From: Bacillota bacterium
GTDB lineage: Bacteria; Bacillota; Clostridia; UBA1381
Direction of reading: 5' to 3'
DNA length: 39,850 nt
Assembly: GCA_029007725.1 (NCBI GenBank)
Contig: JAQXIJ010000023.1
Coordinates: 1-39,850, forward strand
The notes beneath the pieces are model-generated. The model was not told where the DNA came from. It saw nothing but the letters and a program-made list of their open reading frames with translations, and did no database searches. Numbering within the stretch: the stretch's first letter is position 1; each line of letters begins with the position of its first letter. A program made the position numbers and the translations under genes. Shown here in pieces: positions 1,580 to 39,850 of this stretch.

Positions 1580-1750
1580 ATAATCACTCCATTCCTGTCA
1601 TTAACAGACCTATGCAAACATCATTCTTCTTTAAATTATATTATACAACATTTTTATAAATGTCAATAATTCTGGACGAATGACCATATAAACATACGAA
1701 ATCTTTAATTCCTAACATTTTGAAGGTTTTTAGTAAAAACTAAATAATGC

Positions 1751-2017
1751 CTACTGAATAATTGCCATTTCCGAAACATTATAAATTTTTAGCAGTTTTT
1801 GAAACCATGATAAAAAAAATCGTAAAAAGAACCTTTCGATTTTTCGTAGGTTCAGTAGTAATACGGACATAGCACGACAATGACAAGTCATTTCATTCGG
1901 TCTTGTCACAGTAAGTCCAACTCCGCATTTGCATTTGGCAAGGCTGAATTTGCGCTCAACCTCTACTCGCGTTGCGTCATCAATGTAACAGACGGCGGCA
2001 TATCTTGTATTTATTCT
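1751..2017 (-). pseudogene. IS5-like DDE transposase, C-terminal remnant
   Basis: Read on the minus strand, the frame gives DDATRVEVERKFSLAK, GVGLTVTR and RAMSVLLLNLRKIE. This is the C-terminal pattern of IS5/IS1182-type transposases, in which the VEVERxFSLAKRKxG block includes the catalytic glutamate region and is followed by a conserved LLxNLRKI helix. Upstream the frame meets a stop (2018-2020), while a neighbouring frame continues, suggesting a frameshift. The N-terminal catalytic aspartates are missing. A dead element. Confidence 0.6.
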
Positions 2018-2223
2018 CTACATAATCATATCAAGGATATCCGTTTTAAAATGGTGGTATGACTATGCGGGCAGATATGCCATGCCAAATTTAGAATAGC
2101 CAAAATAGAATATCATCGTTTGCGTTTCACTAAGTATCACTAGACTCAGTATAATTATATTTATTATTATTTATCTTATTTACATTAGTGCCTGTATCAT
2201 CGACTTCCTGAGGTCTAATATTC

Positions 2224-2700
2224 TTGTACCTTATGGCTACAAAAAATCAGGTTATGCGTAAAAATGAATTAACCAAGTTAAAACATACAATCGAAACCGG
2301 AAAAAGAAGAATATCCGAACTTGATTTGATTATTTCACGCATTTACGAGGATAATGTTTTAGGCAAAATAAGTGATGAAAGATATTATCGTATGGCTTCT
2401 ATGTATGAAACCGAACAAAAAGAACTTATAAAAACCATATCCAGCAGCGAAAAAGAATTGGAAAAAGCTGAACAGCAAAATATTGATATGCGACTTCTGC
2501 TAAAAACATTACGGGAACTTACTGATTTCAAAGAGCTTACGCCAACAATAGTAAATTCTCTCATACAAAGGATAGAAGTCCACAATAACGACAAATATGA
2601 CTGGCATTGTCATGTGAAAGTTGATATTTATTTTACCGCCGTTGGAATGATTGATATTCCTGATGAAAAAGAAATATTGGATATACTAAATAAAATCTAA
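2224..2700 (+). pseudogene. Large serine recombinase, C-terminal fragment (DUF4368-type tail)
   Basis: The 158-codon frame contains a long coiled-coil (KLKHTIETGKRRISELD), the block IYEDNVLGKISDERYYRM, and a final sheet with TPTIVNSLIQRIEVH and DIYFTAVGMIDIP. These form the C-terminal part of large serine site-specific recombinases of integrative elements. The catalytic serine domain and recombinase domain are absent and the frame is closed just upstream (TGA at 2209). Conventional start codons here are not meaningful. It marks the scar of an integrated ICE or Tn-like element next to serS. Confidence 0.75.
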
Positions 2701-2738
2701 GATAATTCACAGATGTACAAGGTTGGATAACAAGGAAA

Positions 2739-2772
2739 ATGGAGTAGCTCCTTGATTTTGGAACTACTCCAT
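2739..2772 (-). terminator. Rho-independent terminator of serS
   Basis: ATGGAGTAG (2739-2747) pairs perfectly with CTACTCCAT (2764-2772), and TCC/GGA extends the stem across an 8-base loop. Read on the minus strand, the stem is followed by TTTCC. It lies about 60 bases after the serS stop, so it probably ends the serS transcript. Confidence 0.6.
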
Positions 2773-2832
2773 AAAAAACTTCCTTATGTGGCGTTAGCTA
2801 AAGGCCGTCCCTTTTTTGCGCTCCCTGTGTAT

Positions 2833-4110
2833 TTAAACTCGTTTAACTATCTTATCTGTGCCCATGTACGGAACAAGAATGTCCGGAACGGTTACAGTAC
2901 CGTCAGCGTTCTGATAGTTTTCAAGAATTGCTGCAACAGTTCTGCCGACTGCAAGCCCCGAGCCATTCAGTGTGTGGACAAATTGCGCCTTGTCCTTTGG
3001 TGAATCCTTGAATCTTATGTTTGCGCGGCGCGCCTGATAGTCCTCGAAGTTAGAGCAGGATGAAATTTCGACATATCTTCCGTAGCTTGGCATCCAGACC
3101 TCTATGTCGTATGTGCAGGCGGAAGAGAAGCCCAAGTCACCGGTAGACAGGCAGACTACTCTGTACGGAATTTTGAGCCCCTGCAAAAGTTTTTCTGCAT
3201 CATTAGTCAATGATTCAAGCTCGTCATATGAATTTTCCGGCCTTGCAAACTTAACAAGCTCAACCTTGTTAAACTGATGCTGACGAATAAGACCTCTTGT
3301 GTCACGTCCGGCAGAACCTGCTTCTGCTCTGAAACACGCCGAATAAGCACAATATTTAATGGGAAGCTTTGTTCCGTCAAGAATTTCGTCGCGGTGCAGA
3401 TTGGTTACGGGGACCTCGGCTGTAGGAATAAGAAAATAGCCATTGTTTGCAACTTTAAACGCGTCTTCTTCAAATTTCGGAAGTTGACCTGTGCCGGTCA
3501 TTGACGCTCTGTTTACCATATATGGCGGAAAAATTTCGGTGTAGCCGGACTGCTCTGTGTGGGTATTTAAAAAATATTGAATAACGCTTCTTTCGAGCCT
3601 TGCACCCTGACCCTTATATACGGTAAATCTTGTGCCGGAAATCTTTGCGCCGCGATCAAAATCGAGAATATCGAGGTCGGTACCGATATCCCAGTGAGCC
3701 TTTGCTTCGAAGTCAAATTCGCGCGGAGTTGACCACTTTCTGAGCTCTCTGTTTTCGGTGTCGTCCTTACCGATTGGGCATTTTGCATTAGGTATATTCG
3801 GGATTTTGAGCATAAACATTCTCAGATCTTCGTCAATTTTTGAAACTTTTGAATCAAGCTCCTTGATTTCTCCGGACAGTTCCTTCATTTCGGCAAAAAT
3901 TTGGTCTGTGTTCTCGCCTGCTTTTTTCATTTTAGGAATCTGCTTTGTAATTTCATTCTGCTTTGCTTTCATCTGCTCAACTTCTGCCAAAATCTCACGG
4001 CGCTGCGCATCCATCTCGATTGCAGGTGTGATGTCAAGATCGTTATTTCTTTTTTTCAGAGCTTCTCTGATTTTATCCGGTTCGGTTCTTAATATTTTGA
4101 TGTCTAACAT
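2833..4110 (-). CDS. serS: Serine--tRNA ligase
   Basis: 425 residues, the usual length. The N-terminal long antiparallel coiled-coil that grips the tRNA-Ser variable arm is visible (residues about 30-105, ending [18 protein letters not shown]). It is followed by the class II catalytic core: motif 2 [22 protein letters not shown] and motif 3 near [11 protein letters not shown]. The enzyme charges tRNA-Ser, and also tRNA-Sec where present. The start chosen is ATG 4110 (MLDIKIL), because GGAG sits 7 bases upstream. An ATG at 4122 would overlap that binding site. It has its own promoter (4172-4199) and no T-box was seen. The terminator at 2739 follows. Confidence 0.97.
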
Positions 4111-4171
4111 AATTATCTCCATTCCGCCTTTTGGGCTGATTTTATCAGTAAATTTAATTAAATTTTAAAAT

Positions 4172-4199
4172 ATTATATAATTGCTTCTAAGTGATCCAA
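4172..4199 (-). promoter_or_regulatory. Sigma-A promoter of serS
   Basis: On the minus strand, -35 TTGGAT (4194-4199) and a perfect -10 TATAAT (4172-4177) are separated by 16 bases. They lie about 60 bases before the serS start. The 5' half of an inverted repeat covers bases between the two boxes. Confidence 0.6.
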
Positions 4200-4220
4200 T
4201 TTTGTCGATAGTACTTAGAA
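4185..4220. repeat. 8-bp inverted repeat over the serS promoter
   Basis: TTCTAAGT (4185-4192) and ACTTAGAA (4213-4220) form a perfect inverted repeat spaced by 20 bases containing the serS -35 box. It could be an operator or a weak terminator for the gene ending at 4228. There is no U-run directly after it in the minus direction. Confidence 0.4.
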
Positions 4221-4227
4221 ATACACA

Positions 4228-4689
4228 TTACTGCGATTTTTTAACTAAGATATCATAAAAGGTTTTCTGCGACTGTGACAAATCTTCGGAGTAAATACTC
4301 TGCAAATCCTCGCGCGCACCCTTTTTGTCACCGTCGTAGAGTTTTTTATAGATTGCAAGAAGAGCTTCGTTTGCGGAAGCTTCCTTTGAAAGGCGCTCGT
4401 TTTCGGAAGTGAGCTGTGTATTTTCTGCTTTGAGCTCGGTATTTTGGTTTTTTAGACTTTTGTTAAGTTCTACAAGCTGCATATTTTCCTCGCTGACCTG
4501 CGCTGCCTTTTCAGAAAGTCCGACTTTTTCGGTTTCCACTTCACTGACCTTTGATTTGTCAAGGTGTGTCTGCGCAAAAAATGCAAGTATAATCATTATG
4601 ATTGCTACTAAAAATATGAGTGCCGTGTACAAAAAGAGTGAGCGTTCATCAGTAGGTTTGTGTTTTTCTTTGTTATTTTCTGCCGTCAT
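4228..4689 (-). CDS. Single-pass membrane protein with coiled coil (unknown function)
   Basis: 153 residues. A short charged cytoplasmic N-terminus (to about residue 17) is followed by one transmembrane helix (LYTALIFLVAIIMIILAFF) and then a heptad-rich coiled coil from about residue 45 to 105. The C-terminal segment is helical, with EALLAIYKKLYDGDKKGAREDL resembling a single TPR-like hairpin. It starts 4 bases after parB and is probably co-transcribed with parA-parB. Its function is unknown. A role linked to division or chromosome segregation is only suggested by position. ATG 4689 has GGAGG 7 bases upstream, inside the end of parB. Confidence 0.7.
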   Translation of the reverse strand: MTAENNKEKHKPTDERSLFLYTALIFLVAIIMIILAFFAQTHLDKSKVSEVETEKVGLSEKAAQVSEENMQLVELNKSLKNQNTELKAENTQLTSENERLSKEASANEALLAIYKKLYDGDKKGAREDLQSIYSEDLSQSQKTFYDILVKKSQ

Positions 4690-4692
4690 TTT

Positions 4693-5538
4693 TTACCTCC
4701 GGTTTATCAGATCAAGAAGTCGTTCAAGATCGGAACTTCCATAGTATTCAATTTCAATTTTGCCCTTTTTGCTGTTGCCTGAAAGCTTGACTTTTGTGCC
4801 GAGATACTGCTCGAGGTCCTTTGAAATACGGTCAAGCTCGATTTTATAAGCAGAAAGCTGCTTTTTTTCAGGTTTCGGCTTGGGTGAGGTCATAAGCTCC
4901 TTTGCCAAAAGCTCCGCCTGCCGAACGTTGAGTCCGTCTTCGATTATGCGGTTTACGAAAAAGTCGCGCACCGCGCCTGCCGGAACCGAAAGTGCACAGC
5001 GAGCATGACCTTCAGTGATTTCGCCGGAGATGAGCTTTTGCTGGATGTTCTCATCTAGGGCCAAAAGACGTACTGAATTTGCTATGGCACTGCGGCTTTT
5101 TCCAAGACGGGCGCTGATTTCCTCCTGTGTCAGATGGTATTCGTCAATTAGAGAACGATAACCCTGCGCCTCTTCAATTGGATTAAGGTCTTCGCGCTGT
5201 AAATTTTCAATCAGGGCAATTTCGGTAACTGCAAGGCTGCTGTAATCACGAACAAGCACCGGAATTTTTTTAAGTCCTGCTTTTTTTGCTGCTCGCCAGC
5301 GTCTTTCTCCGGCGACAATTACGTACATATCATCGCTTTTTGTTACAATAATAGGTTGAATTATACCGTGTTCTTTAATAGAATCTGACAAAATTTGTAA
5401 TTTTTCTTCGTCAAAGGTTTTTCGAGGCTGATTTTTATTTGGTATAACGTCAGTAAGCTTTACTTCGATTACACCATGACTCGCATCTTCTTCGGCAAAC
5501 AGCGCGTCAAGTCCTTTTCCGAGGCCTTTTTTTGCCAT
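4693..5538 (-). CDS. parB: Chromosome-partitioning protein ParB (Spo0J)
   Basis: 281 residues. It begins with the ParA-stimulating tail (MAKKGLGKGLDALF). The CTP-binding N-domain follows with GERRWRAAK (residues 77-85) and ENLQREDLNPIEEA (111-124), then a helix-turn-helix (LTQEEISARLGKSRSAIANSVRLL) and a C-terminal dimerisation domain. ParB loads at parS, slides as a CTP clamp and recruits condensin. Two matching parS sites are in this window (6371 and 8083). The gene lies 4 bases after parA in the same orientation. ATG 5538 follows GGAG inside the parA stop region. Confidence 0.96.
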   Translation of the reverse strand: MAKKGLGKGLDALFAEEDASHGVIEVKLTDVIPNKNQPRKTFDEEKLQILSDSIKEHGIIQPIIVTKSDDMYVIVAGERRWRAAKKAGLKKIPVLVRDYSSLAVTEIALIENLQREDLNPIEEAQGYRSLIDEYHLTQEEISARLGKSRSAIANSVRLLALDENIQQKLISGEITEGHARCALSVPAGAVRDFFVNRIIEDGLNVRQAELLAKELMTSPKPKPEKKQLSAYKIELDRISKDLEQYLGTKVKLSGNSKKGKIEIEYYGSSDLERLLDLINRR

Positions 5539-9310: not shown

Positions 9311-10564
9311 GTGGTTATAACGATAAAATTAAAAAAGTCAGTGACATATATCCTTGCGGTTTTTGCCTCTATTATGCTGATAAGCGGGTGTTATGACGGT
9401 GAAGAACCGGACAGTCTTGCATTTGTGGTGGCAATAGGGGTGGATAAAGCGGAAGAAGAACGTGAGGGCTACAAAATTACTTTTCAGTTTGCCAATCCAA
9501 CACAAATAAGCGGCGGTGCCAGCGAGGAGGGCGGAAAAACAGGTAAGGAAAGCATAAAAAATATAACTGTACCCGCGCCAAGCATATATTCTGCTATAAA
9601 TCAAGCAAATCATATGGTAAGCAAAACTTTTACACTGGCGCATACAAAGCTTATTGTATTTTCTGATGAAATTGCAAAAGAAGGGATCGATTGTTTTCTT
9701 GAAACGGTCAGCAGGAGCAGTGATATACGCCCAAACACATATTTTGCAGTAAGCAAATGTAGTGCGGTAGAATTTCTCGAGGAAGTAGACCCTGATACCG
9801 AGGTTAATCCGGTAAGATATTATACGATGATTTTTGAAAACAATCAGTCGGGATTTGTACCGAAAAATATGTCACAGGATTTTTATTTATACCATGACAG
9901 TGAAGAAAAAAGCTGCATAATGCCACTTTGTGATAAGGCAAGCGGCGAAAATACCAATGATTACAGTGATACCGGATATCAATATAAGATGGGCAATTTT
10001 GAAGCAGGTAAGGCGCCAACAGGAGGTGATAAGGGTATTCAGGTAATGGGTATGGCGGTTTTTGACAAGGACAAAAAAATTAGTGAAATGAAAGAAATAG
10101 AAACAGAAATATATAATATTTTGACCGGCGAATATAAACTCGGATATGTTACCTATTATTATGATAAATCCCCGGATATTCCGATAACGTTGATTCAAAC
10201 GCAGAAGCGTACTCCTAAAATTCGGGTTAAGACGGACACAAGTAACCCGAAAATTGAAATAGAACTATATATGGAGGCCGATGTTTGCTCCTCGACACCG
10301 GATTTTTCACTTGAAAACGATTTACAAAATTTCACAGAACAAATAAAGAAAGAGCTAAAGGAACAAATAGAACAGTTTTTAAATGAAACACAGCGCCTTA
10401 ATACCGATATAGTAGGCTTTGGTAGTTACGCAAAGAGGAATTTTTGTAATGAAAATGGATTTGAGGATTATAAATGGCGCGAAAGATATTCAAATGCGGA
10501 GTTTGATGTAACAATTTGCTATTCAATTCGCAGAACGGGACTGATGATAAGGAGCGGAAAATGA
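9311..10564 (+). CDS. gerAC: Spore germinant receptor C subunit (GerAC-type lipoprotein)
   Basis: About 417 residues. A hydrophobic signal segment (YILAVFASIML) leads to a lipobox, LISGC, whose cysteine should be lipid-modified. Then comes the family start YDGEEPDSLAFVVAIGVDKA and the three-domain GerAC body, ending with a YSNAEFDVTICYSIRRTG strand. The start is uncertain. GTG 9311 is preferred because GAGG lies 6 bases upstream, while the in-frame ATG 9290 has no binding site. The stop overlaps the next gene by the ATGA arrangement. Confidence 0.88.
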   Translation: MVITIKLKKSVTYILAVFASIMLISGCYDGEEPDSLAFVVAIGVDKAEEEREGYKITFQFANPTQISGGASEEGGKTGKESIKNITVPAPSIYSAINQANHMVSKTFTLAHTKLIVFSDEIAKEGIDCFLETVSRSSDIRPNTYFAVSKCSAVEFLEEVDPDTEVNPVRYYTMIFENNQSGFVPKNMSQDFYLYHDSEEKSCIMPLCDKASGENTNDYSDTGYQYKMGNFEAGKAPTGGDKGIQVMGMAVFDKDKKISEMKEIETEIYNILTGEYKLGYVTYYYDKSPDIPITLIQTQKRTPKIRVKTDTSNPKIEIELYMEADVCSSTPDFSLENDLQNFTEQIKKELKEQIEQFLNETQRLNTDIVGFGSYAKRNFCNENGFEDYKWRERYSNAEFDVTICYSIRRTGLMIRSGK

Positions 10565-13862: not shown

Positions 13863-14702
13863 TTATTTTACCTCCTTGTACAGATTACAGATTGCCTCGT
13901 GAGCCTTTCTTTCAAACGGCTTATACATGGAGGAACGCTCAATAGCTTCGTCAAAATCCACCTTGTGACCGTCAAAATCCGGACCGTCGACGCAGGCAAA
14001 CTTAACCTGTTCGTCAACAGTGAGGCGGCATCCGCCGCACATACCGGTTCCGTCAATCATAATCGGATTCATGCTGACAACGGTCTTTATATCGTACTGC
14101 TTAGTCAGCTGACAGACAAATTTCATCATAATCAGCGGTCCGATAACAATAACCTCGTCGTACTTGTTTCCGGCTTCAATAAGCTCCTTTAAGGCGTCGG
14201 TAACAAGCCCCTTTTTGCCATGAGAACCATCATCGGTCATAACAACAAGCTTATTGGAAACGGCGCTAAAATCCTCCTCAAGTATAACCAAATCATTGCT
14301 CCTAAAACCAACAACCGAATGAACTTCGGCACCTAGTCCATGCAGCTTTTTCGCAATCGGATATGCAATTGCGCAGCCAACGCCGCCGCCGACAACCGCA
14401 ACCTTTTTTAGTCCTTCGCAGTGGCTTGCGACGCCAAGCGGTCCGACAAAGTCGGAAATATATTCTCCCTCACTTTTGTGATTAAGATCTTCGGTTGTTG
14501 CGCCGACAATCTGAAAAATAATTGTCACTGTTCCGCGGTCACGGTCAAAATCGGCAATTGTCAGCGGTATTCTTTCGCCGTCATCGGTAACCCTAAGAAT
14601 GATGAACTGACCCGGCTCGGCCTTTTTTGCTATATGCGGAGCCAGAATTTCCATTTTTGTAACAGTAGGATTCAAATTTGTTTTTTTTATAATTCTATAC
14701 AT
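13863..14702 (-). CDS. nfnA: NfnA-type ferredoxin-NADP reductase subunit
   Basis: 279 residues. An FAD-binding beta-barrel (PGQFIILRVTDDGERIPLTIAD), an NAD-binding domain (KVAVVGGGVGCAIAYPIAKKL) and a C-terminal [2Fe-2S] cluster with four cysteines (DGTGMCGGCRL and VKFACVDGP). This is the PyrK/sulfide-dehydrogenase-beta-like fold of the Nfn small subunit, which oxidises NADH while NfnB handles ferredoxin and NADP. It supplies NADPH from NADH plus reduced ferredoxin in fermenters. First gene of the nfnAB operon. ATG 14702 follows AAAGGAG, and a full consensus promoter is at 14741-14769. Confidence 0.87.
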   Translation of the reverse strand: MYRIIKKTNLNPTVTKMEILAPHIAKKAEPGQFIILRVTDDGERIPLTIADFDRDRGTVTIIFQIVGATTEDLNHKSEGEYISDFVGPLGVASHCEGLKKVAVVGGGVGCAIAYPIAKKLHGLGAEVHSVVGFRSNDLVILEEDFSAVSNKLVVMTDDGSHGKKGLVTDALKELIEAGNKYDEVIVIGPLIMMKFVCQLTKQYDIKTVVSMNPIMIDGTGMCGGCRLTVDEQVKFACVDGPDFDGHKVDFDEAIERSSMYKPFERKAHEAICNLYKEVK

Positions 14703-14740
14703 TACAAACTCCTTTCGCAGCTTAACAACTATTCAAATTA

Positions 14741-14769
14741 ATTATAATGTTTTTTTTTTTAAATGTCAA
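14741..14769 (-). promoter_or_regulatory. Consensus promoter of nfnAB
   Basis: Minus strand: TTGACA (14764-14769), a 17-base spacer containing an uninterrupted A-tract, and TATAAT (14741-14746). The transcript start would be about 30 bases before the nfnA ATG. The poly-A spacer is intrinsically curved and may favour strong use. Confidence 0.85.
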
Positions 14770-14859
14770 TTTAAAAAAACTGGTATAAGTATAAATAAGC
14801 AAAAAAATCGCATAATATTGGTAGATATAGTATAAATAATGTCAGAAAGGAAAACGCAG

Positions 14860-15117
14860 ATGAAAGAATTTACCTATAAAATATGCGATGAGCTTGGAAT
14901 CCACGCACGTCCGGCGGGACTTGCGGTAAAGGAAGCCGGAAAATTTAAGTCGAAAATTACAATATATAAGGACGAAAAGCAAGCGGACATGAAGCGGCTT
15001 TTTGCGGTGATGGGGCTTTCGGTAAAGCAGGGCGACACCGTTCGCGTGACGATTGATGGCGAAGACGAGGAGCAGGCGCTTGTTTCGATAGAGGGATTTT
15101 TCAGGAACAATTTATAG
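14860..15117 (+). CDS. ptsH: HPr-family phosphocarrier protein
   Basis: 85 residues, normal HPr length. It carries His15 in GIHARPAG, the residue phosphorylated by enzyme I, and a typical C-terminal half (MGLSVKQGDTVRV). Regulatory position 46, usually Ser in KSIMGVM, is Arg here (MKRLFAVMG), so it cannot be phosphorylated there by HPr kinase. ATG 14860 is chosen because AAAGGA lies 8 bases upstream. An earlier in-frame ATG at 14839 lacks a site. It is the first gene of a cluster with enzyme I and an EIIA. Confidence 0.92.
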   Translation: MKEFTYKICDELGIHARPAGLAVKEAGKFKSKITIYKDEKQADMKRLFAVMGLSVKQGDTVRVTIDGEDEEQALVSIEGFFRNNL

Positions 15118-15128
15118 GAAGTGAAACG

Positions 15129-16748
15129 ATGATAGAACTAAGCGGAAGATCCGTCTGCGGCGGTGTAACATTTGGAAAAATAAGCATTTTCAGCCGAAAT
15201 GGGCGGACGGTAAAGCGCACGCATATACAAAGCGCTGAGGAGGAAATCGGGCGCTTTTTGTCGGCGCGCGACAGCGCGGTTTCGGAGCTTGAGGTCTTGT
15301 ACGAAAAGGCACGCGTAGAAATCGGCGAGGCACAGGCGCAAATTTTTGCGATTCATCAAATGATGCTAGAGGACGAGGACTATAACGATTCGGTAAAAAA
15401 CATAATTTCGGCGCAGATGGTTAATGCCGAAACGGCAGTTCTTGCGACATCAGACAATTTTGCGCGGATGTTTTCAGAAACAGAGGATGCCTATATGCAG
15501 GAGCGTGCCGCCGATGTCAAGGACGTTTCGGACAGGGTGATAAACATTCTTTCGGGCGGAGGCGAAACAAAAATCGTAACAGAACAGACCATAATTGTCG
15601 CCGATGACCTTGCACCGAGTGAAACTATTCAGATGGACAAAGAAAAAATTCTTGCGTTTGTTATGGAAAACGGTAGCAGCACGTCGCATACGGCGATTTT
15701 GGCGCGTTCGATGAATATTCCGGCACTTATCGGAACAAAGGGTGTGCTTAATCCTGAATTTAACGGAAAAGCCGCCGCTGTAGACGGCTACAACGGAAAA
15801 ATTTATATTGAGCCGGACGAAAAAACCGCAGAGATGCTGAAAAAAAAGAAGCAGGAAAAAGAACTGCAGCGCGAGCTTTTGAAAAAACTCAAGGATAAAC
15901 CGACGGTAACAAAGAGAGGCAGAAAAATAAATTTGTACGCAAACATCGGGACACCGGAGGATTTGGGCAGTGTGCTGCTGAATGATGCTGAGGGAATCGG
16001 ACTTTTCCGAAGCGAATTTTTGTATCTTAAAAGCGATGATTTTCCGAGTGAGGACGTGCAGTTTCAGGCATACCGCAGAGTGGCGGAGGCTATGGGAGAC
16101 AAACCTGTGATAATACGTACATTGGATATAGGCGCGGATAAAAAAATAGGATATTTTAATATTGCAGAGGAGGAAAATCCGGCAATGGGAATGCGTGCAA
16201 TACGCATCTGTCTTGAACGCCCGACAATTTTCAAAACACAGCTTCGGGCAATTCTGCGCGCGTCGGCATTCGGAAATATTATGATAATGCTGCCCATGAT
16301 AACCTCAGTGGATGAGGTAGAGCGGTCGAAGACACTGATTGACGAGGTAAAGTCGGAGCTTGAAAACAGCGGAATTCCATATAATCGCAGCATAGAAGTA
16401 GGAATAATGATTGAAACTCCGGCGGCGGCGGTAATATCGGATTTGCTGGCGGAAAAGGTCGATTTTTTTTCGATAGGCACAAACGATTTAACACAGTATG
16501 TGCTTGCAATGGACAGGCAGAACAGCGGAATTTCTGCCATGCTCGACACGCACCATGAGGCGATTTTGCGACTGATAAAAACGGTGGTCGACAATTCTCA
16601 CAAAAAGGGGATTTGGACGGGAATCTGCGGTGAGTTGGGCGCGGATATTGAGCTTTTGCCGAGATTTATCGAACTCGGCATAGACGAGCTGTCGGTAAGC
16701 CCGTCGAGGATACTTGAAATACGCAGCGCGGTGAGAGAATCGGAATAA
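15129..16748 (+). CDS. ptsI: PTS enzyme I (phosphoenolpyruvate-protein phosphotransferase)
   Basis: 539 residues. An N-terminal helical HPr-binding domain is followed by the swivelling phosphohistidine domain with His187 in GSSTSHTAILARS, and then the PEP-binding barrel (LFRSEFLYL, IRTLDIGADK, GIMIETPAA, SIGTNDLTQY, and the catalytic Cys in ICGELG). It passes phosphate from PEP to HPr. It lies 11 bases after ptsH with GGAAGTG before ATG 15129, so the two are an operon. Slightly shorter than the classical 570 residues. Confidence 0.95.
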   Translation: MIELSGRSVCGGVTFGKISIFSRNGRTVKRTHIQSAEEEIGRFLSARDSAVSELEVLYEKARVEIGEAQAQIFAIHQMMLEDEDYNDSVKNIISAQMVNAETAVLATSDNFARMFSETEDAYMQERAADVKDVSDRVINILSGGGETKIVTEQTIIVADDLAPSETIQMDKEKILAFVMENGSSTSHTAILARSMNIPALIGTKGVLNPEFNGKAAAVDGYNGKIYIEPDEKTAEMLKKKKQEKELQRELLKKLKDKPTVTKRGRKINLYANIGTPEDLGSVLLNDAEGIGLFRSEFLYLKSDDFPSEDVQFQAYRRVAEAMGDKPVIIRTLDIGADKKIGYFNIAEEENPAMGMRAIRICLERPTIFKTQLRAILRASAFGNIMIMLPMITSVDEVERSKTLIDEVKSELENSGIPYNRSIEVGIMIETPAAAVISDLLAEKVDFFSIGTNDLTQYVLAMDRQNSGISAMLDTHHEAILRLIKTVVDNSHKKGIWTGICGELGADIELLPRFIELGIDELSVSPSRILEIRSAVRESE

Positions 16749-17256: not shown

Positions 17257-18315
17257 GTGAAGGGATTTGCAATGAAAAAAATTGGCGAAACAGGCTGGGT
17301 CGAAAAGCCTATTCCGAAATTGGGACCGCTTGATGCGCTTGTGCGCCCAACGGCTGTTTCGCCGTGTACGTCCGATGTGCATACGGTTTGGGCAGGCGCA
17401 ATCGGCGACAGGCATGACATGATTCTCGGACACGAGGCGGTCGGAATTGTAGAAGATGTCGGAGAGCTTGTGCATGATTTTAAACCGGGAGACAGGGTGG
17501 TTGTTCCGGCGATTACACCGGACTGGGGCTCACTTGAGGCTCAGGGTGGGTTTGCAATGCATTCTGGCGGAATGCTTGCCGGCTGGAAGTTTTCCAATTT
17601 TAAGGACGGAGTTTTTACTGAGTTTTTCCATGTGAATGACGCCGACGCCAATATGGCGCATTTGCCCGATTCAATTGATGACGCGTCGGCAGTTATGCTT
17701 TGCGATATGATGCCGACAGGATTTCATGGTGCGGAACTTGCAGATGTGGAATTCGGCGACAGTGTTCTGGTTATAGGTATAGGTCCGGTCGGACTTATGG
17801 CAATAGCCGGTGCTGGACTGAAGGGTGCATCGCGGATTTTTGCAGTCGGTTCAAGACCAAAATGCATCGAGATTGCAAAAGAATACGGCGCAGAGCAGAT
17901 TATAAACTATAAAAACGGCGAAATCAGCGAGCAGGTACTGCGGCTGACCGAGGGAAAGGGTGTCGACCGCGTTATTGTTGCGGGCGGCAATAATGACACC
18001 TTTATACCGGCAGTTAAGGCATTGAAGCCCGGAGGCGTAATAGGTAACGTGAATTATTTGGGTGAGGGCGAGTTTGTGAGAATTCCGCGCACGGAATGGG
18101 GCTGCGGCATGGCGCATAAACAGATTCATTCCGGACTTATGCCGGGCGGAAGGCTACGCATGGAAAAGCTTATGTCATTGATTGAAGCCGGCAGAATCGA
18201 CCCATCAAAAATAGTTACGCACAGATTTTGCGGCTTTGAAAAAATAGAGGACGCACTGATGCTGATGAAAAACAAGCCCGCCGACCTAATAAAGCCGGTG
18301 GTGTTTATAAAATAA
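17257..18315 (+). CDS. NADP(H)-dependent secondary alcohol dehydrogenase, zinc type
   Basis: 352 residues. Closely resembles the tetrameric Thermoanaerobacter/Clostridium beijerinckii isopropanol dehydrogenase along its whole length. Zinc ligands are Cys37 (SPCTSD), His59 (LGHEAVG) and an Asp in DMMPTGFHGAELAD. The cofactor site VIGIGPVGLMAIAGAGLKGA is followed by GSRP and INYKNG, the Ser-Arg-Tyr set that recognises the 2'-phosphate of NADP. It reduces acetone or aldehydes, or the reverse. Start GTG 17257 has GGGAGG 9 bases upstream. Likely the last gene of the pts operon; its NADPH could come from NfnAB (inference). Terminator at 18369. Confidence 0.93.
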   Translation: MKGFAMKKIGETGWVEKPIPKLGPLDALVRPTAVSPCTSDVHTVWAGAIGDRHDMILGHEAVGIVEDVGELVHDFKPGDRVVVPAITPDWGSLEAQGGFAMHSGGMLAGWKFSNFKDGVFTEFFHVNDADANMAHLPDSIDDASAVMLCDMMPTGFHGAELADVEFGDSVLVIGIGPVGLMAIAGAGLKGASRIFAVGSRPKCIEIAKEYGAEQIINYKNGEISEQVLRLTEGKGVDRVIVAGGNNDTFIPAVKALKPGGVIGNVNYLGEGEFVRIPRTEWGCGMAHKQIHSGLMPGGRLRMEKLMSLIEAGRIDPSKIVTHRFCGFEKIEDALMLMKNKPADLIKPVVFIK

Positions 18316-32883: not shown

Positions 32884-33439
32884 GGAGCTTTTTTTATTGT
32901 TTGTGCTGTACTCGTTTTTCGGGTGCGTGCTTGAAAATATTTACTATTATATACATCACGGACAGTATGTGTCAAAGCGCACGCTGCTTAATCTGCCGCT
33001 GTGCCCGGTTTACGGATTTGCAGCACTTACGCTTGCGGCGGCAGATAAAGGAATCGAACACAATCCTTTTATGCTGTTTGTAACGGGATTTTTGGCGGTA
33101 AGCGCGGTAGAATTGGCGTTCTATCTTGTGTGCGAGCGTGCATATGGCATAAAATGGTGGGACTATTCCGGTATGCGCATTAATCTGATGGGCGGTGTAA
33201 GTCTGTATTACTCTGTGATGTGGGGCATGCTTAACATCGTGTTTGCAATTCTGGTGCACCCATACTGCGGTGCGGCTGTGCATATGCTTTCGCATACTGC
33301 AAAAATGTATCTTTCGCTTTTTGTAGGTGTGTATCTGCTGGCAGATTTGCGGCAGACACACAGCGAGCTGATAAAGTATAAAAACGGCGAAAAAAGCCTT
33401 GTGGCAAAGAAGTTTTTGTATTTATTAAACAATAATTAA
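32882..33439 (+). CDS. Integral membrane protein (putative ABC-transporter type IV / DUF family)
   Basis: 185 residues with about five membrane helices. The opening LFLLFVLYSFFGCVLENIYYYIHHGQ resembles the putative ABC transporter permease family of Firmicutes (PF06541 type), followed by NLPLCPVYGFAAL and an acidic-aromatic KWWDYSGMRINLMGGVSLYYS block seen in the same family. No transport evidence exists. ATG 32882 is chosen over an earlier frame start because AGGAGGG lies just upstream. It is the last host gene before the prophage edge. Confidence 0.75.
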   Translation: MELFLLFVLYSFFGCVLENIYYYIHHGQYVSKRTLLNLPLCPVYGFAALTLAAADKGIEHNPFMLFVTGFLAVSAVELAFYLVCERAYGIKWWDYSGMRINLMGGVSLYYSVMWGMLNIVFAILVHPYCGAAVHMLSHTAKMYLSLFVGVYLLADLRQTHSELIKYKNGEKSLVAKKFLYLLNNN

Positions 33440-33463
33440 CAGTCTGTTCGATAAAGTCAAGGG

Positions 33464-33539: not shown

Positions 33540-34589
33540 TTAAGCGCTCATAAGGCTGTTGATGCAAGCCTCGTATAATTCAGCGGAGGTGTAGTAGTCA
33601 AACATTTCTCTTGGGTAGTTATTGATCCATTTTTCAAGTTTGCGTATTTCGGCAGGCGTTGTATTGGTAAAATCATATCCTTTGGGGTAATGGCGGCGCA
33701 CCATTCTGTTTTGGTTTTCGTTGGATCCACGCTCGTAAGCACTGTACGGGTGGCAAAAATACACTTTTGTGCGTTTGCTTTCTTTAAGTACGGTGCTTTT
33801 TTCTATGCCCTCATAGTCGGAAAATTCCGATCCGTTATCAACCGTAATGGTTTGGAATATTTGGGCGAACAGTTCCGGGTCGAGCTGCCGTTCAAGGTCA
33901 TTAAGAGCACTTACAACGCTGGAGGCGGTTTTGTCTTTCATAAGGCGTATGATCTCATTACGGGTTTTACGCTCCGTAAGCACAAGCAGCGTTTTCTTGG
34001 TGCCCTTTTTGCCCTCCACGCTGTCCATTTCCCAATGCCCAAAAGTTATACGCTTTGCAATTTCCTCCGGTCGCTTTTCTATGCTTTCGCCCCTTGGTGG
34101 GCGTTTAGCACGCTGCACCTTATCGTATTTGTGATCCGTCTTGTTTTTCTTAATCGGTAAATCTTTATTGGTGAGGGTGAGGAAAACACCATCCTCAATG
34201 TATCTGTAAAAGGTTGTTTTTGATATGGAGGTCTGGAATTGCAAGCCCTTGCGATTTATTTCACCAAGTATGGCACCGGGGGCGTACTTTTCAACACTTA
34301 CTTTGTATTCAAGATAATTGGCATACTCAATATCATTGCCGATTTTAAGATCGCCGCCTTTTGCCCTTAAATTATCTTGCTTTTTCTGCTCGGATATTTC
34401 GGGGCTATATCGTGTTTCCGTGGTCCAATCGGTATTAAGGTGCTCATATTCGCCACGCTTGATCTCACGGTATATGGTGCTGATATGTACGCCCAACTGT
34501 TCAGCTATAACCTTTATCGGCGTTTTTACACGCAACCAAGCCTCAATTTGTAATCTATCGTTCCAAGTAAGTGTTTTGTAGTGCCTCAT
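33540..34589 (-). CDS. IS30-family DDE transposase
   Basis: 349 residues. The N-terminal HTH shows LTWNDRLQIEAWLRVKTPIKVIAEQLG and HISTIYREIKRGEY. The catalytic core carries Asp in FGHWEMDSVEGKKG, Asp in ITVDNGSEFSDYE and Glu in YSAYERGSNENQNR, the DDE set of the IS30 family. ATG 34589 has GGAGG 7 bases upstream. It lies 17 bases after an RHH-protein gene with the same promoter. No classical IS30 terminal repeats were found on either side, so it may belong to the prophage instead of being a free IS. Confidence 0.92.
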   Translation of the reverse strand: MRHYKTLTWNDRLQIEAWLRVKTPIKVIAEQLGVHISTIYREIKRGEYEHLNTDWTTETRYSPEISEQKKQDNLRAKGGDLKIGNDIEYANYLEYKVSVEKYAPGAILGEINRKGLQFQTSISKTTFYRYIEDGVFLTLTNKDLPIKKNKTDHKYDKVQRAKRPPRGESIEKRPEEIAKRITFGHWEMDSVEGKKGTKKTLLVLTERKTRNEIIRLMKDKTASSVVSALNDLERQLDPELFAQIFQTITVDNGSEFSDYEGIEKSTVLKESKRTKVYFCHPYSAYERGSNENQNRMVRRHYPKGYDFTNTTPAEIRKLEKWINNYPREMFDYYTSAELYEACINSLMSA

Positions 34590-34953: not shown

Positions 34954-35133
34954 ATGCAAAGTTTACTTGCAGGAAAAATAACCCTCCCGTGTTCGTCAAC
35001 CTGCACAATCGGGGGGCGTTCCATATTATTTGTGGAATATCCCCAAAAGAAAGCAGGAATTAAACAGATCGACTATAACGATCTCCCAAAAAGAGGGCTG
35101 TGTGCTGCACAGCCGGGAGGGAGGTTGCTATGA
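34954..35133 (+). CDS. 59-residue protein of unknown function
   Basis: 59 residues starting MQSLLAGKITLPCSSTC, with Cys13 and Cys17, a basic centre (FVEYPQKKAGIKQIDY) and a basic C-terminal half ending GGRLL. It has a TTTTGGAGG site 9 bases before ATG 34954, its own promoter, and a 4-base ATGA overlap with the next gene, all arguing that it is translated. I recognise no family. As a leader gene it may mainly serve translational coupling of the membrane protein downstream. Confidence 0.65.
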   Translation: MQSLLAGKITLPCSSTCTIGGRSILFVEYPQKKAGIKQIDYNDLPKRGLCAAQPGGRLL

Positions 35134-35849
35134 GGTTTGTTAAAAAGTTTTTCGGCATACTTTTATGTGTATGCGCCTTTGGTTTCACAGTAGCCACTGA
35201 ACAGGTGGAGCGTAATATGCAGCCGTTTTTTATAGGGCTTGTTTGTGTTTGCATTGTTGGAGCAGTTTTATTGCTGAAAAGCTCAAAAAAGAGCAAAAGC
35301 AAAGCACCGGAAACGCACACCACAATGGCCGAGGGCGATCTTGTAACCGTGCAGACAGACTACACGCCCAGCACAGTGCCGGACGATATAGTAAAGGAAA
35401 TGCGGAAATACTACACGCTTATGCAGGCACAGCGTGATGCGGAAATAATGGCCGACAGTTACCGCTTGGCGAGTACAACCCTAAACCTTGAAACATTTTG
35501 CTCACGGTACGATCTTGCTATGCAAAAAGCACACACCCTGCTGCAAGCGGAGCAGGTAGGCGTGCGTGGTATTCAAAAGCTAAATTGCCATAATGCCTGC
35601 CAACAGGTCATAAATTCAGCAAGTGCCTTAAAGATACGGGCGCTCCACGATTTTGAAACAGAGGAAATATACAAAGCGGATGCCTTGAAAACAAACAAAG
35701 GTAAGCTAAACCGTTATGTAAAAATACTTATGGAGCTTGAAAAAGCGGAGCCAACTTTTATGTTTATGGAGGAGTACGATGCCCTTGTAGAAAAAATAAA
35801 GGACCGTATCAGCCAATTTGAAAGTGCCGAAAAAGCAACCCAAAAATAA
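35130..35849 (+). CDS. Prophage membrane-anchored helical protein, unknown function
   Basis: 239 residues. Two hydrophobic segments near the N-terminus (FGILLCVCAFGFTVA and PFFIGLVCVCIVGAVLLL) leave a helical cytoplasmic domain of about 180 residues with KEMRKYYTLMQAQRDAEIM and KTNKGKLNRYVKILMELEKA. ATG 35130 overlaps the upstream stop, and GGGAGG lies 7 bases before it. With its own promoter and terminator and opposite orientation to the late genes, it has the layout of a lysogenic-conversion (moron) gene. An immunity or exclusion role is a guess. Confidence 0.75.
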   Translation: MRFVKKFFGILLCVCAFGFTVATEQVERNMQPFFIGLVCVCIVGAVLLLKSSKKSKSKAPETHTTMAEGDLVTVQTDYTPSTVPDDIVKEMRKYYTLMQAQRDAEIMADSYRLASTTLNLETFCSRYDLAMQKAHTLLQAEQVGVRGIQKLNCHNACQQVINSASALKIRALHDFETEEIYKADALKTNKGKLNRYVKILMELEKAEPTFMFMEEYDALVEKIKDRISQFESAEKATQK

Positions 35850-35987: not shown

Positions 35988-36131
35988 TGTTAGAATGTTA
36001 GAAAATAGGTAAAAACCCTTTTGTTATGCGGTTTTTCGGTCTAACAATTCATAAAACAATCTAAAAATAAATTGTTAGATTGTTTCTAACATTTCTACAC
36101 AGAAAACAAATTGTTTTTGTTAATTGTTAGA
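35988..36131. repeat. Cluster of six TGTTAGA boxes between the cassette and the holin gene
   Basis: Exact copies of TGTTAGA at 35988, 35996, 36073 and 36125 (plus) and 36040 and 36085 (minus), plus an imperfect one at 36056. AACAATCTAA (36055-36064) and TTAGATTGTT (36076-36085) form a perfect 10-bp hairpin whose minus-strand 3' side is TTTATG, a possible terminator of the late operon. The last copy encodes the final residues of the holin. Confidence 0.6.
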
Positions 36132-36521
36132 AGTAAAACCGATGGAGTTATTTTCTGCTGCACCCTCCGTGGTGTCCTCGGCACCGTCCGTGTTTTCTTT
36201 TTCAAAAGCACGGTTAAACTCCGCAAGGGCCGCCTCGATCAGCATACGCATCTCAAGATCAGTAATGGTAATACCTTTTTCTGCAAGCATTTCCGATGCC
36301 GCCTCAAGGGCTTTGTTGAGCTTTTCCTCCCCGTGCAGATCCTTATAAATCTGCTCAACAGCCTGCACAACGGTTTTTGCAACCGCCTGCTTGGTCTTAT
36401 CGTTTACATACTTTGTGTATAGCTTTTTTGCAAAAATGCCTATGTAGCCGGCAAGAGCAGTAAGCACCGCATAAAGTATGGTTGTGCCGTATTCAGAAAT
36501 AAAAAGTTTTATAAATTCCAT
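36120..36521 (-). CDS. Phage holin (LLH-type)
   Basis: 133 residues. One N-terminal membrane segment (GTTILYAVLTALAGYIGIFA) and a cytoplasmic helical tail with KTVVQAVEQIYKDLHGEEKL and LAEKGITITDLEMRMLIEAAL, the pattern of the LLH holin family in Clostridia prophages. It would form holes letting the amidase reach the cell wall. GAGGAGG lies 8 bases before ATG 36521. It is the last gene of the late operon, 15 bases after the amidase. Confidence 0.87.
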   Translation of the reverse strand: MEFIKLFISEYGTTILYAVLTALAGYIGIFAKKLYTKYVNDKTKQAVAKTVVQAVEQIYKDLHGEEKLNKALEAASEMLAEKGITITDLEMRMLIEAALAEFNRAFEKENTDGAEDTTEGAAENNSIGFTSNN

Positions 36522-36536
36522 AGTGAGATCCTCCTC

Positions 36537-37583
36537 TTATTTAAGTAATCTGTTTACCTCGGCTTGTACGGCGGCATAATCATAGCCGGCAGCAGTAAGC
36601 CTCTGCTTTCGTGTAGCACCGTTGCCCCACTTGCCCTGGATAACCTCACGGGCAACCTCGGTATTGCTCTTTTTTGCGGACGCAGACGGTGCGGCCGCCG
36701 TTCCGCTTTTCGTGGTGATAAAGTTTTTATATCCTGCTGCGGTCAGCTTGGCTGCCATAGCATCCGCATTTGCACGCACACTGTACGCACCAACCTGCAC
36801 CTTATAGAGCCCATCCACCTGCACGATGTAGGTGTCAAAACCTTTGCCTTTGAGCTCTGCGGCAAGTTTGTCAGCATTTGCTTTTACTGCAAAAGCCCCT
36901 GTTTGCACACGGTAAAGCACCTTGTTGGTGTCCGACTGGGCAGGTTTTGCGGGCTGCTTATCCGCATCAAGCAGCTTTTGCACCTCGGCTCTAAACCAGT
37001 CCATTGTTTTACCAAAGGGCTTGAGCCAGTTGTGCGGATCCCCGTGGTTGCCGCCATAGCCCTGCTGGTAGCTTTCGTAATGACTGCTGATTTTGTCAAC
37101 ACCAAAACCGTATTTTTTGCAGAGGTATGCACAAAACTCCTGCGCCTCTTTCATTACAGCATTGAAATAAGCAGGATCGGAGAGCCCATCCTCGCACATT
37201 TCAAACTGCACACGAGCGGTGGGGTTGTAATTGTAACTGCCTTTTTTACCGGAGCCAACACCCCAGCAGCAAATATCAAAGGGGAGCGTTTGGTATGTTT
37301 CCACCTTGCCTGCGGCGTTTACACCGATGAAAGCGTGCACGCATACACTGCGCCCCATTTCCTTTGCCGAGTGGTTCCAGTCATTGCCGTACTGATTTTT
37401 GCCAATATCAGCGATAATGGCATCATAATTGGCATCTGTCTTGAGTGGCTGCACATACCTTTTGAGGGTTTTGTTGTTCGCCCCTGTGGAGTGCACTACA
37501 ATACCGGTTGGCTTGCCCCCGGTTATTTTCGTGCCCTTTTTGTAGCAGTCATTTGCGGTTAAAATACATTGTTTGAGTACCAT
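36537..37583 (-). CDS. Endolysin: N-acetylmuramoyl-L-alanine amidase with SPOR and Cpl-7 domains
   Basis: 348 residues. Amidase_2-type catalytic domain: His31 in IVVHSTGANN, SVCVHAFIGVNAAGKVE, HYESYQQGYG and HGDPHNW. It is followed by a SPOR domain with internal two-fold repeat (YRVQTGAFAVKANADKLAAEL and YKVQVGAYSVRANADAMAAKL) and a C-terminal Cpl-7 wall-binding repeat (EVAREVIQGKWGNG and RLTAAGYDYAAVQ). Cuts the glycan-peptide bond for host lysis. ATG 37583 (MVLKQ) is chosen because GGAGG lies 8 bases upstream. Confidence 0.93.
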   Translation of the reverse strand: MVLKQCILTANDCYKKGTKITGGKPTGIVVHSTGANNKTLKRYVQPLKTDANYDAIIADIGKNQYGNDWNHSAKEMGRSVCVHAFIGVNAAGKVETYQTLPFDICCWGVGSGKKGSYNYNPTARVQFEMCEDGLSDPAYFNAVMKEAQEFCAYLCKKYGFGVDKISSHYESYQQGYGGNHGDPHNWLKPFGKTMDWFRAEVQKLLDADKQPAKPAQSDTNKVLYRVQTGAFAVKANADKLAAELKGKGFDTYIVQVDGLYKVQVGAYSVRANADAMAAKLTAAGYKNFITTKSGTAAAPSASAKKSNTEVAREVIQGKWGNGATRKQRLTAAGYDYAAVQAEVNRLLK

Positions 37584-37642
37584 AATAGTAACCTCCTTAA
37601 AAATTTCAGCCGGGAGGGGCAACCCTCGCCGGCTGTTTTGTA

Positions 37643-37918
37643 CTATTTATGAGCCTGTTGATTGATGTACTTGTCGAGCTTGTCTTTCGCTATCGGTACG
37701 GTATGATTTGCACCGAGCTGTTGCAGGCCGTCCAAGCAAGCAGACAAGGCAAACACAATGAGGGTGTCCTCCTCTTTAATTCGTGCAATATCTTTATCTT
37801 GCTTTTCCTGTTTTAAGTACCAGCGGTACACGGCGAAAATCACACCAAAAATAACGCCAAGAGCCGTAATAATTGCTGCTGCCGTTATTATGGTATCAGC
37901 GTTAATTGTTATCCCCAT
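37643..37918 (-). CDS. Prophage one-helix membrane protein
   Basis: 91 residues: one transmembrane helix (TIITAAAIITALGVIFGVIFAVY) followed by a charged helix (WYLKQEKQDKDIARIKEED) and a second amphipathic region. Similar proteins stand before the endolysin in Clostridia prophages and may assist lysis, but the role is unproven. ATG 37918 has GAGGAGG 9 bases upstream, inside the XkdX-like gene. It overlaps that gene by 17 bases in another frame. Confidence 0.72.
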   Translation of the reverse strand: MGITINADTIITAAAIITALGVIFGVIFAVYRWYLKQEKQDKDIARIKEEDTLIVFALSACLDGLQQLGANHTVPIAKDKLDKYINQQAHK

Positions 37919-38039
37919 TGCCGCCATCCTCCTCGTGCAAAATCTCGTCAATGGCGGCCTTGTACTGCGGGTATTTTTCAACAACCGTGTCATAATCGAG
38001 CTTGCCAGCCTTAATACGCATCGCTAAATACTTTGCCAT
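37902..38039 (-). CDS. XkdX-like small phage protein
   Basis: 45 residues beginning MAKYLAMRIKAGKLDYD and continuing VVEKYPQYKAAIDEIL, the family pattern of XkdX proteins of PBSX-like phages. GGAGG lies 8 bases before ATG 38039. It is the short gene usually found between the tail-fibre region and the lysis genes. It overlaps the following membrane-protein gene by 17 bases. Confidence 0.82.
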   Translation of the reverse strand: MAKYLAMRIKAGKLDYDTVVEKYPQYKAAIDEILHEEDGGNGDNN

Positions 38040-38042
38040 AGC

Positions 38043-38411
38043 TTATACCTCCTCGCCGCCAAAAAGCAGAAAATCAACGGCATCCATCGTGTCGCTTAAC
38101 TGTTCTTTGAGCTGTTTGTTTTCTTTTTCCAGAGCGGCAATGCGCTCCTCTTGGGTTGGCTTTTTGGGTGGTACCGGAGGCTGCCAAACGGAGGCTTTTT
38201 CGTACCAAGTATCAAAGTTGGCGGTAATATCAGCCTCCGGGGCATCGGTACGCATATATGCCTCATCAGCCTCATAGCTTTTTGCACCGGTTTCCGGGTC
38301 TGTTACCTCTGCAATGTTCTTGCGCATCCAAAGGTCTGCGGTTTCAGCCGAGGGCAGGCTCATATATTTGATACTGTCCGGGCGTTCTGTGTAATACGCT
38401 TTCATTACCAT
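38043..38411 (-). CDS. Phage tail-accessory protein with C-terminal coiled coil
   Basis: 122 residues. N-terminal MVMKAYYTERPDSIKYMS, then MRKNIAEVTDPETGA, and a C-terminal coiled coil (QEERIAALEKENKQLKEQL) ending DFLLFGGEEV. This resembles the small XkdW-like proteins placed after the tail fibre in PBSX-type prophages, often a fibre-assembly accessory. ATG 38411 has AAAGGAG 9 bases upstream. The start overlaps the reverse-transcriptase-like end of the upstream gene by 68 bases. Confidence 0.7.
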   Translation of the reverse strand: MVMKAYYTERPDSIKYMSLPSAETADLWMRKNIAEVTDPETGAKSYEADEAYMRTDAPEADITANFDTWYEKASVWQPPVPPKKPTQEERIAALEKENKQLKEQLSDTMDAVDFLLFGGEEV

Positions 38412-39174
38412 TGTTGTTTGCTCCTTTCGCAAATTTACTTATTACTTTTCTTGCTGCACGATGCACGGCTTTAAGGTGCAACGCCTTTGCAATGTGTTGG
38501 GAGTTTGTGTACTTGAAATAGCCACGGTATGAAACGATCCTCCGGGCATTTTGCAGATATATAGGCAAGCCCGCAACCATACGCCGCCAAGCCCTTAAAA
38601 GTGCACGGCGTGCCCGTACAAAGGTGCGGGCTCTTATTGTTGTATGGTCGCTGCTTACTACATAGCCCATCATATCCGGCGGCTCTTTCGCCGTCTGCTT
38701 TATACAGCGGTTAGGCTTGATACACAAACCTAAAACTATAAATTTTTGCCCACCATCGCATCGGAGCAAAAGCACCTTTTCACCCGTTTTAAGCCCCAGG
38801 TGGACCGTAAATTTTTTGCGCCCCGTATAACTGTGGGTATGCCCAAGGCTTACACCTCCGGCGCTTTCTGTGCTGCCGGAGTAGGTTTCATCCCCGGAGG
38901 TTGTACCGGAGTAAGAGTGCTTATGTGTAAGGTTTATGCCACCCAACGCTGTACCGGTGGTATGATCCACGGTTTCATACACCGTGTAATCACGCACGGC
39001 ATTTGTGAGCAGCAGCTGCGATGCCGGGAGGGTGATTTTTTGGTTTAAGCTGATTTTAAGCGGGGCGGTGGAAACAACCTCACCGATTTTAAGAGCCATA
39101 GGCTCACCGGCATTTACGGCCTCCACAGCCGCCTGCTTAATCATCATTATAAATTTTTGTGCATCAAGCGACAA
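38344..39174 (-). CDS. DUF2577 tail protein fused in frame to a reverse-transcriptase C-terminus
   Basis: 276 residues. Residues 1-147 are a DUF2577 tail protein: start SLDAQKFIMMIKQAAVEAVN, THKHSYSG, VSLGHTHSYTG, and the usual end KVLLLRCDGGQKFIVLG. Residues 149-276 continue in frame as LCIKPNRCIKQ, PDMMGYVVSSDHTTIRARTF, RRALLRAWRRM, and ARRIVSYRGYFKYTNSQHIA, the thumb and C-terminal pattern of DGR-type reverse transcriptases. The frame seems to join two genes by a deletion. TTG 39174 has GAGGTGG upstream; a GTG at 39183 is possible. The tail function of the first part is probably affected. Confidence 0.7.
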   Translation of the reverse strand: MSLDAQKFIMMIKQAAVEAVNAGEPMALKIGEVVSTAPLKISLNQKITLPASQLLLTNAVRDYTVYETVDHTTGTALGGINLTHKHSYSGTTSGDETYSGSTESAGGVSLGHTHSYTGRKKFTVHLGLKTGEKVLLLRCDGGQKFIVLGLCIKPNRCIKQTAKEPPDMMGYVVSSDHTTIRARTFVRARRALLRAWRRMVAGLPIYLQNARRIVSYRGYFKYTNSQHIAKALHLKAVHRAARKVISKFAKGANNNGNESVLHRTPGQYQIYEPALG

Positions 39175-39850
39175 AAGTACCACCTCGCAATTTTAGCTCC
39201 ATAAGGTGCTGCCCGTCCTTAAAGCTGTGTTTAACCTGTTCCACAAGCATAAAGTTTGAAACATTTATATCACCCAGCCCAAGGATAACCACAAGCAGCG
39301 TACCGGCACGCACCCTTGTATCACCAAGGGCGTTTTTAATGCTCAAGCTGCGTGTTTTGCTGTTATACAGTTTGAGCAGAGATGCCGCCATATTGTTAAG
39401 GTTGGTGCTGTCATCGTTCACCTTTTCGGCGTACTGCAACACACCCCACTGTGTTATGGTACTACTGCTTTTTACGGTTACAGGATCCGAGCCCTCACGG
39501 AAAAGCCGTATTTTGTTGTATGTGTTGTTTGCAATGCTTGATTTATAGTCATAATCGCCTGCGGTATCCTCGTTTATCACAAGGCCGAGTTTCATATTTC
39601 CTATATTGGAAAGCGTTAGCTTTCCGGCTTTATCGTACAGCACATACATTTGTGTTGTTGCCTTGAGTGTTTCATCAAGGGCGTTTTGGATAATATCAAA
39701 AAGGCTTTTATTGTCCTCTGTGCGGCTGGCAATCTTGTAGCCGGTGTCCTCAAGAGTTCCGGGGTTGAGCCCAAAGTCCTCTGCCAGCATACGCACAACC
39801 TCTGTTGCGGTCTTATTTTCATATTGAAAATAGTCTTTGTTGTTGAGGTA
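39164..39850 (-). CDS. XkdQ-family phage tail hub protein (C-terminal part, cut by window edge)
   Basis: The frame is open to the window edge. Visible: YFQYENKTATEVVRMLAEDFGL, TQMYVLYDKAGKLTLSNI, NTYNKIRLFREGSDP and a C-terminal VRAGTLLVVILGLGDINVSNFMLVEQVKHSF. This is the C-terminal domain of XkdQ/YqbQ tail proteins, a hub-type protein of contractile-tail phages. The next gene (DUF2577) starts inside its end, the usual order. The N-terminal part is beyond the window. Confidence 0.85.
   Translation of the reverse strand, partial: YLNNKDYFQYENKTATEVVRMLAEDFGLNPGTLEDTGYKIASRTEDNKSLFDIIQNALDETLKATTQMYVLYDKAGKLTLSNIGNMKLGLVINEDTAGDYDYKSSIANNTYNKIRLFREGSDPVTVKSSSTITQWGVLQYAEKVNDDSTNLNNMAASLLKLYNSKTRSLSIKNALGDTRVRAGTLLVVILGLGDINVSNFMLVEQVKHSFKDGQHLMELKLRGGTFVA

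Follow-up and report, generated by a model that had tools for sequence, protein, structure and literature searches.

The window, a 39,850-nucleotide stretch of a draft assembly from a Bacillota bacterium of the Clostridia (GCA_029007725.1, contig JAQXIJ010000023.1), holds toward its right end a run of phage genes on the minus strand that includes tail, lysis and recombinase genes (Table 1). These genes belong to a prophage bounded by two copies of a 15-bp direct repeat, between which it measures ~7.5 kb in all. Within it lies an open reading frame of 279 codons (38344-39183, minus strand) that is open throughout, from a GTG at 39183, where the start of the DUF2577 gene overlaps the end of the XkdQ-like gene, to a stop at 38344-38346. 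Residues 1-151 of its product form a complete DUF2577 tail-protein domain, which continues in frame into the C-terminal portion of a reverse transcriptase (RT; residues 151-279).

Table 1. Features of the prophage in the window and of its counterparts on other contigs
Feature	Position	Strand	Evidence or remark
15-bp direct repeat ATTAACAGTCTGTTC, right copy	33435-33449	.	Bounds the prophage; left copy at C85 1244-1258
IS30-type recombinase	33540-34589	-	HTH_38 and weak rve match; 56% identical over its length to FP_Lagaffe integrase
IS30-type gene, L022	13117-14181
IS30-type gene, L008	4039-5094
IS30-type gene, C2 (L014)	3806-5077
Holin (Holin_LLH)	36120-36521	-	Domain and PHROGs matches
Endolysin: Amidase_2, SPOR and CW_7 domains	36537-37622	-	Domain and PHROGs matches
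Small lysis-region protein, probably membrane-bound	37643-37993	-	phrog_1009
122-aa phage protein, function-unassigned family phrog_37768	38043-38411	-	Same position after RT in L005, L007 and L009
C-terminal remnant of RT of a diversity-generating retroelement	38344-38733	-	phrog_1423, E 1.6e-11; L005 17403-17780 at 87% protein identity
Deletion joint, 4-bp microhomology TTAG	38730-38733	-	blastn of both flanks to L005; TTAG at 10451-10454 and 17403-17406
DUF2577 tail protein, residues 1-150	38734-39183	-	PF10844, E 2.3e-22; phrog_579, E 1.2e-25; L005 10001-10450 at 84% protein identity
XkdQ/YqbQ-like tail protein, 5' part missing	39164-39850	-	PF24032, E 6e-76

The original prediction, made from the letters of the DNA and its reading frames, had proposed just such an in-frame fusion of DUF2577 to the end of an RT of the type found in diversity-generating retroelements (DGRs), and profile matches on either side of the joint bear it out. 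The Pfam family PF10844 matches residues 15-151 with 79.5 bits, against a gathering cut-off of 22, and spans profile positions 1-94 of 96, a full-length match. The protein search suggested for the tail of the frame was likewise positive, with residues 150-257 matching positions 348-457 of the PHROGs family phrog_1423, 'Reverse transcriptase'. The peptide across the joint reads GGQKFIVLGLCIKPNR, and the RT remnant beyond it, the last third of the enzyme, comprises motifs 6-7 (by inspection) and the thumb, the catalytic FMDD being absent. The RT part has no match in Pfam or NCBIfam, the RVT_1 profile (PF00078) matches nowhere in the whole genome of the host, and the RVT_1 match in intact relatives ends before the portion retained in the fusion. 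The RT end is therefore revealed only by PHROGs and close relatives, and automatic annotation would label the frame 'DUF2577 protein', overlooking it. That related DUF2577 proteins naturally bear such an extension can be ruled out: L005, L007 and L010 refute it, the extension matches the RT of the same phages at 87%, and no DUF2577 protein among the relatives retrieved supports it, as these end, in keeping with the prediction, a few residues past GGQKFIVL or its equivalent.

Contigs of IMG/VR carry the DUF2577 and RT halves separately, and the closest relative, L005, has both in one phage. The gene order in L005 is DUF2577 (10001-10480), sheath initiator, Baseplate J, Gp48-like protein, tail fibre, a target protein of 586 aa with a variable repeat (VR; 14480-16240), RT (extending to 17792), the 122-aa gene, endolysin and holin, and the order in L007 is the same. 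A template repeat (TR) sits between the target protein and RT in the intact relatives, the distance from DUF2577 to the end of RT is ~6.9 kb in L005, L007 and L024-L026, and the baseplate and fibre families lie in the very interval that the window is missing. An intact relative had been predicted and exists several times over (L005, L007 and L024-L026), with DUF2577, baseplate, fibre/target VR, TR, RT and the 122-aa gene; the accessory gene avd, also predicted, was not found, as a PF05635 search of the records of L005, L007, L009 and L024, which may be fragments, gave no match. Avd is common in DGRs and not universal.

The VR, at the end of the target gene, and the TR, in the stretch before RT, are repeats of 105-111 bp that differ at 16-19 positions in L005, L007, L009 and L024. 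The mismatches fall almost exclusively at template adenines (17 of 18 in L005, 18 of 19 in L007, 13 of 16 in L009, all 16 in L024, 11 of 12 in L028 and 11 of 14 in L029). Such an A-biased difference is the defining signature of a DGR, and the RT of these phages thus belongs to a true one. In the ancestor of the relic, this enzyme once varied the receptor-binding protein. It also matches RVT_1 (E 1.9e-12 in L005, 8.7e-10 in L007) and carries FMDD and IGSFLSQ; the motif xGxxxSQ is typical of DGR RTs. The RT fragment in the window is derived from a diversity-generating retroelement of the relatives' type. A defence-type RT was considered and ruled out, because PADLOC gave no match and TR and VR are present in the relatives.

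Alignment of both flanks to L005 places the joint where it had been predicted, at about 38730. The window is 88% identical to L005 over L005 9334-10454 and 86-87% identical from 17403 onward, and the alignments to the left and right overlap by exactly 4 bases, TTAG. In L005 terms the missing interval is 6,952 bp, L005 being the closest relative, 86-88% identical on both sides, and here a proxy for the exact parent sequence. This agrees with the loss of several kilobases in the original prediction, and what was said to have been lost (baseplate, fibre, template repeat and RT catalytic core) is exactly what the interval contains in L005. The remnant starts at residue 224 of the L005 RT, whereas FMDD is residue 195 (at L005 17316, upstream of the breakpoint), so the RT catalytic motifs are gone; the deletion reaches through RT motifs 1-5 (FMDD) and takes all that precedes them in the interval. 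An overlap of 4 bp or more is expected at ~1.6% of random breakpoints (computed, about 0.016), and because it is this rare by chance, microhomology probably guided the deletion. An illegitimate deletion, mediated by microhomology between two TTAG sequences, would have removed ~6.95 kb and joined codon 151 of DUF2577 to about codon 224 of the RT frame (L005 numbering). The two frames happened to match, for which the chance is 1/3, so that one long open reading frame remains. The 122-aa gene that follows it has kept its signals, as have the lysis genes.

When L005 DNA was compared with the genome of the host, the only counterparts were the XkdQ end, DUF2577, the RT end, the 122-aa gene, the lysis genes and pieces on two further contigs, C2 and C85. 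Baseplate_J is absent from this genome by a profile search that matched in three controls, and a target-protein homologue was not found there by a search that had no positive control. Of the functional RT, TR and VR that make up a DGR, the window holds the RT C-terminus only, and it lacks the full set of head, packaging and tail genes of an intact prophage. The element had been called a defective but diversifying-phage relic; it is defective and comes from a DGR-bearing phage, but the relic itself cannot diversify anything.

The decay also goes further than was foreseen, with both a second deletion and a second relic. Contig C85 (L021), whose bases 1-141 are identical to window 39710-39850, carries at 1-873 a BRO-N/HTH regulator whose frame continues into the XkdQ-like gene (BRO-N, E 3.6e-25; YQBQ, E 7.6e-13). 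In the relative L030, a stop codon closes the BRO regulator at this very position, which implies that a second deletion removed the stretch between the regulator and XkdQ; judging by the gene content of L005 and L030, the genes lost would be the early, packaging and head genes and most of those for the tail. C85 ceases to be homologous to L005 precisely at the 141-bp contig overlap, a hint that a second, differently joined version of the C85/window region existed in the sample. Contig C2 (L014) has another relic of this phage type at 788-5077, in a more advanced state of decay: it retains the BRO region, part of the gene that comes after BRO in L030, the end of an RT gene interrupted by stops, a fragment of a holin gene and an IS30-type gene. 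Here, too, the deletion has an end within RT, at most ~150 bp from the window breakpoint in L005 coordinates, a nearness that could reflect chance or a weak hot spot.

These findings bear on whether the DUF2577/RT joint might be an assembly chimera, put together from two stretches of one intact prophage or from two different phages present in the sample. The joint is known from one assembly of 89 contigs, a draft, and the 141-bp overlap at the window end is a sign of a branching assembly graph, albeit at the other (C85) joint. We nevertheless consider a chimera improbable, as the two sides share just 4 bp at the joint, far below what assembly overlaps need, and differ to the same degree from one relative, L005. 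Moreover, the searches described above found the missing genes on no other contig of the bin, and the C85 joint and the C2 relic show this type of prophage decaying in the same genome.

The IS30-type gene occupies the same right-end position in the two relics and in two related phages, just inside phage ends that resemble short inverted repeats TGTGCGAAA. IS30 elements have flanking duplications of 2-3 bp, a length exceeded by the 15-bp direct repeat of the window prophage. The recombinase is probably the phage integrase, as in the Faecalibacterium phage Lagaffe, and an inserted IS was dropped as an explanation given the same placement in L008, L022 and C2 and the Lagaffe integrase. Between this gene and the holin gene, on the plus strand (35100-35849), lies a gene for a 249-aa protein that weakly resembles YrhC (E 0.00027, below the cut-off); L022 has a relative of this gene in the same place (12619-11879). 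It is possibly a cargo gene expressed in the lysogen.

The whole locus is thus very probably a decayed prophage of the PBSX type, with a contractile tail and an IS30-type integrase, that once had a complete DGR and in which the ~6.95-kb deletion created the fusion. The fusion itself most likely has no function, because the RT part is without catalytic motifs, template and target, and the phage is without baseplate, most tail, head and packaging genes. The alternative, that the fusion is expressed and was selected and kept for its own use, with the palm/thumb end of the RT enabling a phage tail protein to bind RNA or DNA, appears highly unlikely. In its favor, the frame is open across the joint, as it is at the other large deletion (C85), and the RT part, which is basic, has suffered little damage (87% identity to L005). 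However, the surrounding tail machinery has been lost, and there is no second instance: the joint pattern has no other occurrence in collections of viral contigs or genome contigs, and the fusion was not found in the 69 other genus and family genomes searched. The state of the RT part also has other explanations. The start of the 122-aa gene and its ribosome-binding site GAAAGGAG lie inside the 3' end of RT and are both kept, and the last RT codons overlap this gene in another frame (38347-38411), so that the RT tail owes part of its conservation to the 122-aa gene. Against L005, dN/dS is 0.19 for the RT part and 0.16 for the DUF2577 part; the value for the RT part indicates that its divergence was mostly under constraint and by itself gives no sign of decay of the frame. 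Since most of the divergence from L005 probably predates the deletion, the low dN/dS suggests a recent deletion and is no evidence that the fusion is selected. With the fusion read as a functionless product of deletion, the locus illustrates the ordinary decay of a virus with unusual clarity, reveals no new system or mechanism, and shows a diversity-generating phage turning into a relic via a few large deletions, at least one of them with microhomology.

DGRs are common in phages of Faecalibacterium prausnitzii, among them FP_Lagaffe, a myovirus with RT, TR/VR, an IS30-family integrase and flanking direct repeats, and FP_Epona, a DGR-bearing prophage with RT and TR/VR (PMC5883640). The IS30-type protein of the window is 56% identical to the Lagaffe integrase, and both prophages are flanked by direct repeats; the RT of L007 matches that of FP_Epona at 27%. 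The phage region of the window has no megablast match in the phage collection, so it differs by sequence from the Faecalibacterium phages. Given the integrase identity and the DGR prophages of Faecalibacterium, the relic is nonetheless best placed among phages of a known kind, as a decayed member, and the finding points to a phage group combining an IS30-type integrase with a DGR. In contrast to Lagaffe and Epona, the window prophage has had its DGR and most of the phage deleted, and the RT C-terminus alone is left. A literature search found nothing specific on DUF2577 or on DGR prophage remnants. Large deletions, fused gene ends and lysis genes surviving between attachment-site repeats are features that the window shares with cryptic and defective prophages, from which it stands apart in that the position of its joint is known to the exact base and neither of the two deletions happened to break the reading frame.
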